Below the pieces are notes generated by a model, which saw nothing but the letters and a program-made list of their open reading frames with translations, was not told where the DNA came from and ran no database searches. Both the position numbers and the translations under genes were made by a program. A DNA stretch of 64,000 nucleotides from Methylophaga sp. (GTDB lineage: Bacteria > Pseudomonadota > Gammaproteobacteria > Nitrosococcales > Methylophagaceae): the NCBI GenBank assembly GCA_026988435.1, contig JALSLH010000009.1, forward strand, positions 1-64,000. The letters run 5' to 3'. Numbering within the stretch: position 1 is the first letter of the stretch; every line of letters begins with the position of its first letter. Positions 49,215-56,256 of the stretch are shown piece by piece.

Positions 49215-49885
49215 CAAAAACAGCATTAGTTACCGGCAGTAACCGTGGTATCGGACTAGAAATGTGCACGCAATTAAAACAGCGTGGTTTTAAAGTTATC
49301 GCTACCTGCCGAAAAGCATCGCCAGCATTGAATGATTTAGGTGTTGAAGTGATTGAAAATGTCGAAGTTAGCGATCCTAAAAGTTTGGCAACATTAGTAG
49401 ATACATTAGCAGGGCGACAAATTGACTGGCTCATTAATAATGCCGGCATCGCCGATGGTATTGCTATGGATGAGCTTAATGAGCAGACCATTGCCAGTTG
49501 CAAACGTATGTATGAAGTGAACAGCTTAGGGCCATTATTGACAACGCAAGCCTTAGTCGGCAATTTAACTGAAGGCAGCAAGGTCGGTATTATCACTAGC
49601 AGAATGGGTTCGATCGATGATAATGATTCGGGTGGTAGCTACGGTTATCGTATGTCGAAAGCAGCAGTCAATGCCGCAGGTAAATCATTGTCTATTGATT
49701 TAAAACCTAAAGGTATCGCCGTTGCGATTTTGCATCCGGGTTGGGTAAGAACTGATATGACAGGACATAATGGTTTAATTGATACCGATGAATCTGCATC
49801 GGGCTTATTACAGCGTATGGAAGAGTTAACGCTAGAAACGAGCGGGTCATTTTGGCATACCAATGGTGACTTGCTACCTTGGTAA
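49211..49885 (+). CDS. Short-chain dehydrogenase/reductase
   Basis: Classical SDR: cofactor motif TGSNRGIGLEM, NNAG in WLINNAGIADG, catalytic Ser in IITSRMGS and Tyr-Lys in YGYRMSKAAVN. It is 224 residues, similar in size to C-factor-like SDRs. It overlaps the mtnA stop by 4 nt, so the two are co-translated. The substrate is unknown. Confidence 0.85.
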   Translation: MTKTALVTGSNRGIGLEMCTQLKQRGFKVIATCRKASPALNDLGVEVIENVEVSDPKSLATLVDTLAGRQIDWLINNAGIADGIAMDELNEQTIASCKRMYEVNSLGPLLTTQALVGNLTEGSKVGIITSRMGSIDDNDSGGSYGYRMSKAAVNAAGKSLSIDLKPKGIAVAILHPGWVRTDMTGHNGLIDTDESASGLLQRMEELTLETSGSFWHTNGDLLPW

Positions 49886-50784
49886 GTTATCCTAAACTAT
49901 CGAAAGAACAGCAGATTACATTGCCCGAACTGATTCGCGCAACACCCTTGCCATCGCTTTATGATGATAGCACCCATCAGCTATGGGACTGCGAGACTAA
50001 ACAAGGTGATCTGATATTAAAAGTTTGCAATAAGAGGAATGTGAAGCAGTCAAGCTTTTGGCAAGGCATGAACACTTTGTTTGCTGTTGATTTGACAAAG
50101 CAATTGGGTGAATTTCAATCGGTCTATACTAAAGTAGCTAAATTTGGTTTGCTAAACATTCCTGACTATATTGCTTCAAGTTCTATTGCAGAAAAAGGTC
50201 CAGCATTTATTGCCTGTAAAAAACTGGCGGGTTCGATGGTGATGCCTACAGATATCAATAAGGGGATGGTAAGACAACTAGCCGGACATATTGCCGTGTT
50301 GCATCAACATCAGCAAAAGAGTTGGGGGCAAATCAGTCATCCTAAATTTGATGCAATACAGTGGCCAAGTCGTTTGCAAAACAGTTTAATTCAGTTGGCA
50401 AAAGATAATCATGCTATTCCAATTAAGTTATTAGATGAAGTCGTGGAGCAAGCAGGAAAGATAAAGGTGGAGAATTTTGTGCCAGTGATGGTTGATTTAC
50501 GTTGGGATCAATTTTTACAACAAGATGGAATAATAAATGCACTGGTAGATTTAGATGCCTTTGTTTTTGCTCCTAGAGAACTAGAATGGGTTCTATTAGA
50601 GTATTTACTCGATCAACAGCAAATGAGTGAGTTTTGTAAAGCGTACCAACAAATAGTAACAGCTCCTGATTTATCTCAGGTAAGAAAACCGTACCGTTTA
50701 TTATTATTTCTAATGAATGTATTAGGTGCAAAGAGTATTGAACAATGGATGTTGTCGCCCGAATTATGTGATAATCATCAGTGA
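49879..50784 (+). CDS. APH/choline-kinase-fold protein of unknown substrate
   Basis: The kinase-like layout is visible: a strand with lysine (DLILKVCNK), an alpha-E-like helix with LAGHIAVLHQHQ, a degenerate catalytic loop VDLRWDQFLQQ (Asp kept, usual Asn replaced by Gln) and the metal Asp in ALVDLDAFVFAPRELEW. It is 301 residues. The start is a TTG overlapping the SDR stop and is uncertain. Being downstream of mtnA, a sugar or small-molecule kinase role is possible, but it may also be a pseudokinase. Confidence 0.5.
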   Translation: MVSYPKLSKEQQITLPELIRATPLPSLYDDSTHQLWDCETKQGDLILKVCNKRNVKQSSFWQGMNTLFAVDLTKQLGEFQSVYTKVAKFGLLNIPDYIASSSIAEKGPAFIACKKLAGSMVMPTDINKGMVRQLAGHIAVLHQHQQKSWGQISHPKFDAIQWPSRLQNSLIQLAKDNHAIPIKLLDEVVEQAGKIKVENFVPVMVDLRWDQFLQQDGIINALVDLDAFVFAPRELEWVLLEYLLDQQQMSEFCKAYQQIVTAPDLSQVRKPYRLLLFLMNVLGAKSIEQWMLSPELCDNHQ

Positions 50785-50827: not shown

Positions 50828-51331
50828 ATGTCTATTTTCTCATGGTTATTTGGAAAAAAGGATGAGGTACAGCAGGAAACGATTATAGAGCCGACTACGG
50901 GCAATAATCCAATACGATTTCGTCCTGAATTGGTTGAAAAGTTAATTAATGATCATCGTGAAATTGTCGTTATTTACAGTGAAATGAATGATCTATTTGC
51001 TAAAAAAGATTATGGTCAAATTGGGCTTAAGGTTAATGAATTTAAAAGGAAACTACAGGGACATGTTATTGTCGAAAACGTCCAGTTTTATACCTATCTT
51101 GAAAATAAACTCCGTCACGACCCAACAAATCTAGAATTTATTCGTGATGTACGTAAGGAAATGAATGGTATCGCGCATGCGGTCGTTCAATTTGCACGCA
51201 AATATGAAAAAGTTGGATTTAGCGCCCAAGTCATTGAAGAGTTTTCCAAGGATCTAGCCGGAATAGGTGACGTCTTGACCCAGCGAGTAGAAATGGAAGA
51301 ATCACAACTTTATAGTTTGTATGAGCAATAA
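50828..51331 (+). CDS. Hemerythrin-like HHE domain protein
   Basis: A 167-residue four-helix protein. Candidate ligands are His in LINDHREIV, His/Glu in LQGHVIVENVQFY, His in GIAHAVVQF and the Glu pair in RVEMEESQLY. The order fits a bacterial hemerythrin/regulator-of-sigma-D-like HHE fold. The start at 50828 has AAGGAG upstream; the earlier ORF opening is non-native. A di-iron O2- or NO-sensing role is inference. Confidence 0.7.
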   Translation: MSIFSWLFGKKDEVQQETIIEPTTGNNPIRFRPELVEKLINDHREIVVIYSEMNDLFAKKDYGQIGLKVNEFKRKLQGHVIVENVQFYTYLENKLRHDPTNLEFIRDVRKEMNGIAHAVVQFARKYEKVGFSAQVIEEFSKDLAGIGDVLTQRVEMEESQLYSLYEQ

Positions 51332-51333
51332 AA

Positions 51334-51951
51334 CTAGTATTGTCGATAACGTTTTTGCCAGCTGATAAACCCTATTATCGCTAAAACAAAATATAAACTG
51401 AACATAACCACGGTGGCATAAAAGCCATTTTGAACATACAACACAATAGCCGCGGAGTTGATAACAATCCAGTAAAGCCAATTTTGTAGTACTTTTTTAG
51501 CCATCAACCAAGTGTTCATCACTGAAAACACCGTGACCCCAGCATCGAGATAGGGGCTTTTTGATAGTTGATAATAACTAAGATAGATACCTACCGCAAT
51601 GGTTAAAAAAGCACCCAAAATTATAAATTCTATTTGTGACAGTAACGACCAGCTGGTGATGGCTAAATTATCTTCTACATTGCCGTGTTTTTTCCAAAGC
51701 AGATAACCATAGACTGCCATGCCCATATAATAGAAATTGAGCAGGGCTTGCATGGGAAGTTGGCCTTCCCAAAATAGAATGGTGTAGATGACTGTGCTGA
51801 CAAAGGCAAAAGGCCAGCACCATTGTGATTCGCGTGCGGCCAAAATGACATAGGCAATGCCAAGGGCAGCTGCAAAGCTCTCCCAGCCAGACATGGCTGA
51901 GAGGGCATTGATAATAGTATTAAACAAATCAGAGTTAAACATCGACCACAT
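51334..51951 (-). CDS. pnuT: PnuC-family permease, probable thiamine transporter PnuT
   Basis: About seven hydrophobic segments in 205 residues with PnuC features (GWESFAAALGIAYVILAARES, QWCWPFAFVSTVIYTILFWEG, NFYYMGMAVYGYLLW). PnuC proteins move nicotinamide riboside, but relatives under TPP riboswitch control carry thiamine (PnuT). Here it is the last gene behind a TPP riboswitch, a TonB receptor and a thiamine-binding protein, so thiamine is the likely substrate. It overlaps the previous gene by 17 nt. Confidence 0.82.
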   Translation of the reverse strand: MWSMFNSDLFNTIINALSAMSGWESFAAALGIAYVILAARESQWCWPFAFVSTVIYTILFWEGQLPMQALLNFYYMGMAVYGYLLWKKHGNVEDNLAITSWSLLSQIEFIILGAFLTIAVGIYLSYYQLSKSPYLDAGVTVFSVMNTWLMAKKVLQNWLYWIVINSAAIVLYVQNGFYATVVMFSLYFVLAIIGFISWQKRYRQY

Positions 51952-52195
51952 CAGCGCGATCGCTACCCACCATTTTCAAGACAAAGACCGATTCAGGTAT
52001 AGCATCGAATACAGCTTCGATTTCATCATCTAAACAATCCATCACATCGTGGTATTCACCGAATACTTGGGTGCTTAGGCTGTTTCTTTTAACGATAAGA
52101 TTCGGGTTGTTCTCTAGCTTAAGAATAAACGTCAAAATGGGTTCAACGTAATTTTCATTTAATGGGTATAGGCTTATATCTACTGAAATTCTCAT
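51935..52195 (-). CDS. YkoF/MTH1187-like thiamine-binding protein
   Basis: An 86-residue protein of the ferredoxin-like YkoF/DUF77 type: MRISVDISLYPLNENYVEPI is the typical first strand and turn, followed by a second strand/helix with EYHDVMDCLDDEI and a closing strand SVFVLKM. Related domains bind thiamine or its HMP part. Position between the TonB receptor and the PnuC-like permease supports a thiamine role. There is no signal peptide. Confidence 0.75.
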   Translation of the reverse strand: MRISVDISLYPLNENYVEPILTFILKLENNPNLIVKRNSLSTQVFGEYHDVMDCLDDEIEAVFDAIPESVFVLKMVGSDRADVVDV

Positions 52196-52252
52196 GGATT
52201 GTCCTTTTTTAATCTGCCCCCCCTAGCAAGGGAAGGATAATAAGTTGAATGA

Positions 52253-54337
52253 TCAATAATCGTAGCTTACAGATAAGCCGATAATACGCGGCTCGCCTTT
52301 TTGAACATAAGTTTCCGTTGTGTAACCATTGCCCGGGTTATTACCAAAGCTGCCAAATCCACGAACGGCATACTCTTTATCAAATAGATTTCTACCCCAT
52401 AGATTAATTCTCCATGACTTTATTGCGTATTCAATGCTGGCATTGACTAAGGCATAAGAATTTGATTTAGCATTGTGGCGGTTAGAAAAATAAAATTCAT
52501 CTTTACCTTCGATATTAGCTCGTGCTGTCCAGTTTTGACCAATATAGACTTCTGTACCCGCTGCAAATTGGTAATTAGGTGCGTGGGCTTGCCGACGACC
52601 ATTTACATCAAGAGAACCTGGTTTTGGATTGTCAAATTCATCGAATGTGGCACGTAATAAACCGACATTGGCAAATAAACGCCAATCTGAATTCACTAGC
52701 CAATCGACCTCTGCTTCTAGACCGATATTTTTACCTTTAGCCGCATTGCTTAAATAATCAACAAACTCGGTACTGAGATCAGGACGAACCGTTAATAGTG
52801 AACTTTTAACTTGCTGGTCTTTACGCTTGGCATAAAAGACAGATAGGTTTGTTTTTAACGCACCATCAAGCCAGAGAGATTTTATTCCTGCTTCTAAGTT
52901 CCACAGATATTCTGTATCAAAATCACGCGCATTGGTGGGCAATGTGCCATCAGTATTTACGCCACCGGCTTTATAGCCACGCGATAAACTGGTGTAAAGC
53001 ATTTGGTCATTATTAACCTGATAATTGAAACCTAGTTTTCCACCATAAAGTGTTTCATCAGAATCAATATTAAGGTTTTCAGAATCTTTATAATCTGCAT
53101 TCCAATACTCAATACGTAAGCCAGTAATCATCGTTAACTTATCTGATAAACCAGTATCTAACTGACCAAATAAGGCGGTGTTTTTAGTGTCGTATGAGCT
53201 AGTGAATACTGATGATAAATAGGTGTAATTACGCTCTAAGTCTTCATCTTGTTGTGCATGGTATACACCCACCAACCAGTCTGTAGAATTATTAAAAATA
53301 CGACCCTCTTTATTAGAGAGCAAGCGGAACTCAATAGAATTATTATCTCGGTCACGCTTATATTCATCAAATGAGCTATATGGAAAAAGGCTTGCATCAA
53401 ATTGACCATTGTATGACCAATCTTCATCATAGCTATACTCAAGATCAGATTTAGAATGGGTCGCTATACTTTCAAGTCGAATAGCGGTTGAAATATCCCA
53501 ATCAGTCCGCAGTGAGAAGGCATTGGTCTTTTGTGCATCTGTGCCCGGTTCGTCTGATAGTGTGTTTCTGCTATTGTCGAAGGTAAAGGCATCGTATCTA
53601 TTATCTATATTAAGGTGAAGATATTTTAAGGATACCGTTAAGTTATCAGAGGCTAGCCACTTTAAGCTGGTTCTAATGGTTGTTTCATCACGATTATTGG
53701 TGTTGTCACGATGAAGGTATTTATTTTTAATGTAACCATCAGATTTATTGCTGTGTAATGCGATACGTCCTAAAAGTGTGTTATCGATAAGTGGACCACC
53801 CACAGCAAGACCAATACTACGCGTGTCATATTTTGCAAGTGTTGATTCAAAATGAATATCAAGATCATTGGTGGGCTCTTTGCTTTGTAGGTTAATTACA
53901 CCTGCAAGAGCATTGGCACCAAAACGTGTACCTTGAGGGCCACGTAAAATTTCAATATGGTCAATATCAAATAAGGTTGCTGAGCCACCACTGCGGCTAA
54001 AATCCATATCATCAATGATCAGACCAACCGAAGGGTTGAGTGGCGATTTAAATTGGCTGCGTTCGCCCATACCACGAATTTGAAAATAATGTGCACGTGA
54101 GCCACCATTAGACATATTTACATTGGGTGCCATATTTAATACATCTTCAATATGTTGGGCTGAACGTGCCTGAATAGCATCTTCGTCAATACGAGTAATG
54201 CTGGTAGGTGTTTTTTGAATTTCAGACGGACGGAAGTCTGAATTAACGACAATGGGCTCAAATGTGGCCGTATCATTTGCAAATGCATTTGCTGAAAGTA
54301 ATGCTGCAAGAACAGCAGGTATAGATTTTAACTTCAT
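52253..54337 (-). CDS. TonB-dependent outer-membrane receptor, probable thiamine receptor
   Basis: A signal peptide (ending NAFAND) is followed by a plug domain (about residues 30-150; TPTSITRIDEDAIQA, IRGMGERSQ, EILRGPQGTRFGANALAG) and a 22-strand-type barrel ending in an aromatic residue (GLSVSYDY). It is 694 residues. The plug resembles the large iron-siderophore type, but the gene lies behind a TPP riboswitch and ahead of thiamine-binding and PnuC genes, which argues for thiamine or a precursor (Omr1-like). Confidence 0.85.
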   Translation of the reverse strand: MKLKSIPAVLAALLSANAFANDTATFEPIVVNSDFRPSEIQKTPTSITRIDEDAIQARSAQHIEDVLNMAPNVNMSNGGSRAHYFQIRGMGERSQFKSPLNPSVGLIIDDMDFSRSGGSATLFDIDHIEILRGPQGTRFGANALAGVINLQSKEPTNDLDIHFESTLAKYDTRSIGLAVGGPLIDNTLLGRIALHSNKSDGYIKNKYLHRDNTNNRDETTIRTSLKWLASDNLTVSLKYLHLNIDNRYDAFTFDNSRNTLSDEPGTDAQKTNAFSLRTDWDISTAIRLESIATHSKSDLEYSYDEDWSYNGQFDASLFPYSSFDEYKRDRDNNSIEFRLLSNKEGRIFNNSTDWLVGVYHAQQDEDLERNYTYLSSVFTSSYDTKNTALFGQLDTGLSDKLTMITGLRIEYWNADYKDSENLNIDSDETLYGGKLGFNYQVNNDQMLYTSLSRGYKAGGVNTDGTLPTNARDFDTEYLWNLEAGIKSLWLDGALKTNLSVFYAKRKDQQVKSSLLTVRPDLSTEFVDYLSNAAKGKNIGLEAEVDWLVNSDWRLFANVGLLRATFDEFDNPKPGSLDVNGRRQAHAPNYQFAAGTEVYIGQNWTARANIEGKDEFYFSNRHNAKSNSYALVNASIEYAIKSWRINLWGRNLFDKEYAVRGFGSFGNNPGNGYTTETYVQKGEPRIIGLSVSYDY

Positions 54338-54342
54338 GAGTA

Positions 54343-54365
54343 TCCTTTTTAATATATAAAAAGGA
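54343..54365 (-). promoter_or_regulatory. Hairpin sequestering the receptor ribosome binding site
   Basis: On the minus strand TCCTTTTTA, loop TATAT and TAAAAAGGA form a perfect 9-bp stem covering the AAAAAGGA ribosome site just before the receptor ATG. Its 5' side overlaps CCTGTCC, which can instead pair with GGACAGG at the 3' end of the riboswitch. Confidence 0.7.
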
Positions 54366-54410
54366 CAGGGGATAACGTGTTAGCGCTTGTAAAGGAGCAT
54401 GTATGTTTCA

Positions 54411-54507
54411 CCGCCTGTCCCTACGCCAGTATTAACTGGATCAGGTTCATAGGGTTCTTTCTTAATTAGAAAGTCTCAGGCAACTTTATATTGGCGCCAC
54501 CCCTAGG
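54411..54507 (-). promoter_or_regulatory. TPP riboswitch (THI element)
   Basis: Read on the minus strand, the conserved thi-box parts occur in order: TAGGGGTG, TGCCTGAGA, ACCCTATGAACCTGATC, GTTAATACTGGCGTAGGGA. P1 can close through GCCT/AGGC. It lies about 75 nt upstream of the TonB receptor start and is expected to switch the whole operon off when thiamine pyrophosphate is plentiful. Confidence 0.95.
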
Positions 54508-54509
54508 CT

Positions 54510-54538
54510 TGAATTTGATGTGAATCTTATCAAATTCA
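54510..54538. repeat. Inverted repeat TGAATTTGAT / ATCAAATTCA
   Basis: Ten-bp perfect arms spaced by 9 bp lie between the PilZ gene stop and the TPP riboswitch. It could be the PilZ transcript end or an operator at the receptor promoter; there is no T-run. Confidence 0.45.
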
Positions 54539-55338: not shown

Positions 55339-56256
55339 CTAAGAGATGGCATGTTCAACCACTTTTTGTGTTAATTGTGGTGCTAAGAATTCAATAAAGG
55401 CATAGCTATAGCCACGAAGATAGCTGCCGCGTTTTATGCCTAAATGTGTGGTGCTGGCTTTGAATAAATGATTGGCATTGAGGGCTTTTAGCGGTGCATC
55501 CTTGGTTTCATCAAATGCCATGCTGGCAATAATACCAATGCCTAGTCCAACTTCAACATAGGTTTTTATTACATCAGCATCGGTTGCCGTGAACACAACA
55601 TTAGGATGTAAACCACGTTTGATAAAGGCTTGATCTTGTTGCTCGCGACCTGTGAACCCCATTACATAGGTCAATATTGGGTATTGAGAAATTGACTCAA
55701 GCGTGAGCTTTTTCTCTAATAATAAGGGGTGGTCAGGAGTGACAACAATTGATCTATTCCAATCATAGCAAGGTAGAATGGCTAAAGAGTCAAATTTAGA
55801 TAAACCTTCGGTTGCAATGGCAATATCGACGCGGCCAGTGGCGACCATTTCAGCAATTTCAGTCGGTGTGCCTTGCACCATATTTAAATGAACATTGGGA
55901 TAATGCTCAGAGAACTTTTTGATCGCTTTGGGAAGAGCGTAGCGTGCTTGTGTATGTGTTGTGGCAATAGAGAGCGTTCCTAGTTGATCATTTTTACTAT
56001 CCGCGGCAAGCTGGCGAATATTCTCAACATCAAGCAAAACACGATCGGCCATCTCAACAACACTCTTACCAACAGCCGTTAAACCTGTAAGGCGCTTGCC
56101 ATGGCGTTCAAATATTTGTAATCCCAATTCATCTTCGAGCTGTTGTACTTGATTGCTTACCCCAGGTTGTGAGGCATGCAACGCGTTGGCGGCGGCAGAA
56201 ACACTCAAACCACGACGAGAAATTTCACGTACATATTTTAATTGTTGTAACTTCAT
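55339..56256 (-). CDS. cysB: LysR-type regulator CysB
   Basis: CysB/Cbl-type transcription factor controlling sulfur assimilation. The N-terminal winged HTH is MKLQQLKYVREISRRGLSVS and ALHASQPGVSNQVQQLEDEL. The effector domain carries the CysB-type stretches TTHTQARYALP, VVTPDHPLL and LGIGIIASMAFD. It is 305 residues (the family is 310-325). It is divergent from the TSUP-tusA-cysH operon it probably activates. Confidence 0.92.
   Translation of the reverse strand: MKLQQLKYVREISRRGLSVSAAANALHASQPGVSNQVQQLEDELGLQIFERHGKRLTGLTAVGKSVVEMADRVLLDVENIRQLAADSKNDQLGTLSIATTHTQARYALPKAIKKFSEHYPNVHLNMVQGTPTEIAEMVATGRVDIAIATEGLSKFDSLAILPCYDWNRSIVVTPDHPLLLEKKLTLESISQYPILTYVMGFTGREQQDQAFIKRGLHPNVVFTATDADVIKTYVEVGLGIGIIASMAFDETKDAPLKALNANHLFKASTTHLGIKRGSYLRGYSYAFIEFLAPQLTQKVVEHAIS

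Follow-up and report, generated by a model that had tools for sequence, protein, structure and literature searches.

A probable TPP riboswitch-controlled thiamine uptake locus of a Methylophagaceae bacterium and a neighbouring candidate thiamine kinase

Dependence on vitamin B1 structures marine communities. Thiamine auxotrophs are scored by known genes, and a genome bearing ThiL with no recognised route to TMP would be misread. The window analysed is a stretch of 64,000 nucleotides, part of contig C9 of a 2.57-Mb Methylophagaceae genome that is ~95% complete and 5.9% contaminated, values because of which absences in the genome are not certain. An earlier note on this DNA had proposed that a TPP riboswitch is followed by a TonB-dependent receptor, a YkoF-like gene and a PnuC-family permease, and family or covariance models match each of these. 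The switch and all three genes are on the minus strand, which that note left unstated; the genes lie inside its range of 51334-54507, but the riboswitch begins 7 nt beyond it. The features are as follows.

54400..54514, minus strand: TPP riboswitch aptamer, RF00059 (covariance model)
54342..54366, minus strand: predicted hairpin CCUUUUU/AAAAAGG over the Shine-Dalgarno AAGGA of the receptor gene (fold prediction)
52253..54337, minus strand: TonB-dependent receptor, 694 aa, probable thiamine receptor with an Omr1/OMthi-like role (PF07715, PF00593)
51935..52195, minus strand: YkoF/Thiamine_BP-fold protein, 86 aa, single domain (PF07615)
51334..51951, minus strand: PnuC/PnuT-family permease, probable PnuT-type thiamine facilitator (PF04973)
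49879..50784, plus strand: TKL, 301 aa, APH-fold protein, proposed thiamine kinase (AF2 model, Foldseek, conservation)

The aptamer matches RF00059 at full length (model positions 1-105) with 71.6 bits (gathering score 54.3), lies ahead of probable thiamine genes, and is the single TPP switch found in a search of the whole genome. Once the aptamer has formed, the predicted stable hairpin masks the Shine-Dalgarno sequence of the receptor gene, which suggests translational OFF control; since the free minimum-energy fold masks this sequence likewise, the switching mechanism is put forward as a suggestion. A TPP switch ahead of a TonB-dependent receptor is also found in a gammaproteobacterium at Shewanella SO_2715, where the comparison concerns switch and receptor: that receptor has a TPP riboswitch (PMC2659441) and is listed for thiamin (PMC3400609). 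In many Methylophagaceae loci a cysB-family regulator gene precedes the riboswitch; in the window it occupies 55339-56256 (minus strand). Two Sulfurovum/Campylobacterales loci carry another TPP riboswitch a short way downstream (L096 6939-7088 and L102 6843-6992), preceding a 628-aa gene that is thiC-like by eye.

A survey of the gene trio across genomes, as the earlier note had proposed, finds it widespread in Methylophagaceae and present also in Methylophilaceae, Thiomicrospirales/Thiotrichales and Campylobacterota. Of 63 genomes examined in the order, 49 have a relative of the small YkoF-like protein. For 46 of the 49 copies a TPP switch lies 2.1-2.3 kb upstream, and the remaining three are near contig ends; the switch is present as well in 13 of 15 diverse loci scanned. 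The permease gene adjoins the small gene in all 30 loci fetched, the window's own included. A profile of the small protein run against GTDB species genomes yielded 407 places, and among the best 80, the named loci that were examined, the permease is adjacent in 79 and the receptor in 75. The taxa at these loci include Methylophaga, Methylophilus, Methylotenera, Thiomicrorhabdus, Cocleimonas, Sulfurovum and other Campylobacterota. The order and spacing of the trio, identical in dozens of genomes, are not due to chance.

The receptor contains a Plug domain (PF07715, E 2.8e-18) and a barrel (PF00593, E 4.4e-34), and its N-terminus resembles a signal peptide by eye. The receptor gene of Methylophaga muralis (L076 2350-4523) is matched as two separate segments and probably contains a frameshift. 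The permease and YkoF-like genes overlap, as had been claimed, their ORFs sharing 17 nt; a start at the second ATG (51942) would reduce this to 8 nt. The permease matches PF04973 with E 4.1e-49, its solved homologue is PnuC (4qtn, E 3.5e-7), and it passes the cut-off of the NCBIfam PnuC equivalog TIGR01528 (76.9 vs 42.45 bits). These matches would suit a nicotinamide riboside (PnuC) transporter with incidental TPP control. However, the TPP switch, a thiamine-fold partner and thiamine-kinase-like partners are conserved across many lineages, and at two loci, L094 and L108, the small protein and permease genes are joined to ThiBPQ-like thiamine ABC genes, so that nicotinamide riboside transport is very improbable. 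As read from gene context, the permease is probably specific for thiamine and not for nicotinamide riboside.

The small protein scores 27.1 bits with the YkoF family (PF07615, cut-off 21), and its AF2 model (pLDDT 89.8) has a beta-alpha-beta-beta-alpha-beta fold that matches the structures of MJ1052, SP2199 and TM0486, at 1.7 A from the last, and superposes at 1.7 A over 75 columns on YkoF with bound thiamin (1sbr). Bacillus YkoF, of the YkoEDC thiamine/HMP ABC system, shares with it the fold and the SLYP and ST..G motifs but differs in having an ABC transporter instead of a Pnu permease as partner, in sequence (16-22% identity), and in a tandem two-domain layout that is absent here. Because it consists of one domain of 86 aa, the protein is named YkoF-like and not YkoF. 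This name, given in the earlier note, holds at the level of fold, although the single-domain Thiamine_BP/UPF0045 structures (MJ1052, TM0486) are equally close. The latter group (TM0486, MJ1052, MTH1187) resembles the small protein in its single domain of about 90-100 aa and provides the best fold matches; it differs in gene setting, and the small protein falls under the cut-off of its family PF01910 (16.7 vs 24.9 bits).

No signal peptide is visible in the small protein, as the earlier reading also had it, and it is probably a cytoplasmic thiamine-binding protein. Beside the permease it would presumably serve as a carrier or buffer, and it may have a gating role. It travels with the permease and not with the receptor: L094 and L108 retain the pair as described above, whereas in the genomes G004 and G006 switch and receptor stand before a thiD-like gene and further thiamine biosynthesis genes (by eye), with no YkoF-permease pair. 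As the small protein is almost always paired with a facilitator-type permease, one may ask whether binding in the cytoplasm can help a vitamin to be taken up passively.

Several loci depart from the simple arrangement of the small gene. A SAM-dependent methyltransferase gene lies inside the trio operon of L105, L106 and L107, flanked in the first two by two copies of the small-protein gene, and L098 also has two copies, separated by a gene-sized gap. At L111 2300-2557 (Saprospiraceae) the small protein occurs with no receptor or permease nearby, either as a stand-alone copy or by contamination.

Family searches of the window's genome detected neither ThiC nor ThiE, and TPK was not detected either (no PF04263 match), for which reason thiamine pyrophosphokinase was rejected as the trapping enzyme. 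ThiL, the TMP kinase, is present 13 kb away on the same contig. The bacterium probably depends on imported thiamine, because ThiC, ThiE and TPK go undetected and there is a single TPP switch. Within the order, trio genomes that also have ThiC mostly carry two TPP switches, one ahead of each, and trio genomes that lack ThiC carry one. The trio is found in 15 of 16 genomes without ThiC and ThiC in 13 of 14 genomes without the trio, a trade-off that by itself is not significant (Fisher P 0.09), with just one genome lacking both.

In the absence of ThiE, the TMP required by ThiL would come from imported thiamine via a thiamine kinase, or would itself be imported. The second possibility belongs to a reading in which the operon imports another vitamer (HMP, TMP or a degradation product) and the small protein is of the HMP-binding kind. 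The retention of ThiL would agree with this, as would the related receptors of G004 and G006, which precede thiD-like, thiO-like and thiG-like genes (named by eye), and the listing of YkoF as a B1/HMP-binding protein (PMC10881298). HMP, however, would not be usable by the window's bacterium, since no ThiE is detected in its genome, and the ThiK-like kinases encoded within the operon at other loci, described below, point to unphosphorylated thiamine. The PnuT of Shewanella woodyi reportedly does not take phosphorylated thiamine, and import of another vitamer is altogether a doubtful, rather improbable account. Import of thiamine itself calls for a kinase, and no recognised thiamine kinase is found in the window's genome. 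PF01636 picks out four other APH-type proteins there, which are AmgK-like, homoserine kinase-like, fructosamine-kinase-like (by eye) and RIO kinase-like (by eye); a known ThiK among these was rejected, each having another likely identity.

The candidate that we propose for this step, TKL, is encoded next to the operon. Its gene converges on the permease gene, is not under the riboswitch, and here stands in a row mtnA-SDR-TKL. Profile scans gave no family match for TKL itself, and because its profile matched nothing among PDB sequences its fold is taken from prediction. The AF2 model (pLDDT 96.5, pTM 0.93) gives 335 Foldseek matches with E <= 0.001, among them fructosamine-3-kinase (E 3.9e-11), homoserine kinase and APH. 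PF01636 matches 33 of 43 TKL relatives (best 1.7e-13), though not the window's TKL. Residues K48, D206, Q211, D224 and D226 are invariant in 56 sequences; the catalytic Lys and Asp and the metal-binding residues are kept, and the usual Asn is replaced by the invariant Q211. The reaction proposed for TKL is that of ThiK/YcfN, of the APH superfamily. Unlike ThiK, TKL has the catalytic loop MxDxRWDQ in place of HxDLNPxN, and since it does not match the ThiK equivalog TIGR02721 or any other ThiK model it is proposed to act like ThiK and is not filed as ThiK. Alignment with ThiK-like kinases by hhalign gives E 0.0044 with a probability of only 7.8. A distant TKL relative (L130 3944-4792, E 1.7e-17) lies beside ABC-transporter-like genes (by eye) in a genome with no detected small protein.

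Within the order, every one of the 49 genomes with the trio has a TKL homologue, as do 3 of the 14 others, one of these being a fragment. They are near to and convergent with the permease gene in 66 of the 80 named loci (the best 80 of 407), including L089 and L090, where TKL is ~4 kb from the permease gene; a further tally, with two contigs represented twice, places TKL within 2.5 kb of the permease gene and convergent with it in 67 of 89 loci. At 11 further loci a ThiK-like kinase gene comes immediately after the permease gene in the same orientation, within the operon, and no TKL lies within 2.5 kb. These kinases are closest to the thiamine kinase YcfN/ThiK and to GntI, and those scanned match TIGR02721 with E 1e-12 to 2e-25, all below the model cut-off. 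The slot of TKL is filled by ThiK-like genes in Campylobacterota and other gammaproteobacteria. Eight loci have neither kinase nearby: three Methylophagaceae genomes (G007, G010, G016) carry TKL elsewhere, two loci have it ~4 kb away, L108 has a ThiK-like gene beyond ThiBPQ, and neither kinase was seen at the loci L092 and L094. Among 274 genomes drawn evenly from the class, 7 have TKL (E < 1e-10), 12 the small protein and 6 both, and in all six the TKL and permease genes are convergent and close. The co-occurrence in this draw has P = 1e-8, or P = 1e-4 with the Methylophagaceae left out, values that overstate the significance because the tests ignore kinship. Quick trees of TKL and of the permease both nest Methylophilaceae among Methylophagaceae, with deeper branches poorly supported, and suggest that the permease-TKL block moved as one unit.

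The trio could nonetheless be a thiamine system and TKL an unrelated neighbour, the kinase of another pathway such as methionine salvage with mtnA. TKL is in the riboswitch operon in none of the 67 loci, sits with mtnA in Methylophagaceae, and keeps that place in G004 and G006, both of which lack the YkoF-permease pair. These facts count against a joint function, but at the loci of Methylophilaceae, Thiomicrorhabdus and Thiotrichales, where TKL is next to the permease gene, the flank that was fetched contains no match to mtnA. The class-wide co-occurrence, the replacement of TKL by ThiK-like kinases, and the matching trees, as if permease and TKL were co-transferred, also argue against an unrelated TKL, which moreover would leave the thiamine-to-TMP step unfilled. 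We therefore regard an unrelated TKL as unlikely. The specific role of a methionine-salvage kinase was rejected, as the mtnA link fails outside Methylophagaceae in the fetched flanks.

It thus appears that the uptake operon of the earlier note stands as regards TPP-controlled import of thiamine or a close vitamer from the outer to the inner membrane, but that its three parts are probably incomplete, a fourth, the APH-fold kinase beside the permease, lying outside its coordinates. Computation shows the parts and how they are conserved, together with the riboswitch, a kinase fold whose APH-type active site is intact, and a genome that apparently lacks ThiC, ThiE, TPK and a recognised ThiK. The explanation that we favour, and consider likely, is a module for thiamine uptake and trapping made of receptor, binding protein, facilitator and kinase, with TKL as a diverged thiamine kinase. 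At low intracellular TPP the riboswitch would permit operon expression; thiamine, or a vitamer close to it, would reach the periplasm through the TonB-dependent receptor, and the PnuT-like permease would let it equilibrate into the cytoplasm, where the small YkoF-fold protein would bind it beside the permease. TKL, or the ThiK-like enzyme in other lineages, would then phosphorylate thiamine to TMP, preventing its exit, and ThiL would make TPP from TMP and close the loop. In this scheme we infer which ligand each protein has, that the small protein works in the cytoplasm, and that TKL phosphorylates thiamine. That TKL represents a new, unannotated thiamine kinase family supplying the missing thiamine-to-TMP step in thiamine-importing methylotrophs and sulfur oxidisers, and that the YkoF-like protein is a cytoplasmic carrier handing thiamine to a passive facilitator, is a bolder proposition whose chances we consider even. 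A literature search covering part of the field did not meet the proposal of TKL as a thiamine kinase. The candidate would close the gap between imported thiamine and ThiL, and receptor, binding protein, permease and kinase would together form a set for calling thiamine importers.

The system is a variant of the Bacteroidetes OMthi-PnuT-Tnr3 scheme, whose OMthi-pnuT-tnr3 genes are TPP-regulated and give deletion phenotypes on low thiamine (PMC5613172). Both have a TPP riboswitch, a TonB-dependent receptor, a Pnu-family permease and, here as a proposal, a thiamine-phosphorylating enzyme encoded alongside; the small protein and the kinase differ. Unlike the Bacteroidetes operon, the locus has an extra single-domain YkoF-like gene between receptor and permease, and no TPK/Tnr3 was found in the genome; its APH-fold candidate kinase, if correctly assigned, would act in two steps with ThiL, and is convergently transcribed and not under the switch.

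Between TKL and the permease gene lies a hemerythrin/Rsd-like gene (PF01814; 50726-51331, plus strand, likely start near 50828), which resembles a recent insertion because the window's own copy was the sole match among the loci searched. In comparison with Methylophaga sp. NORP33 (L075), identity is 97% for the small protein and 94% for the permease but drops to 57% for the receptor and 56% for TKL; the window's receptor is instead 78-79% identical to those of L035 and L036. These mosaic identities suggest receptor exchange at the locus.
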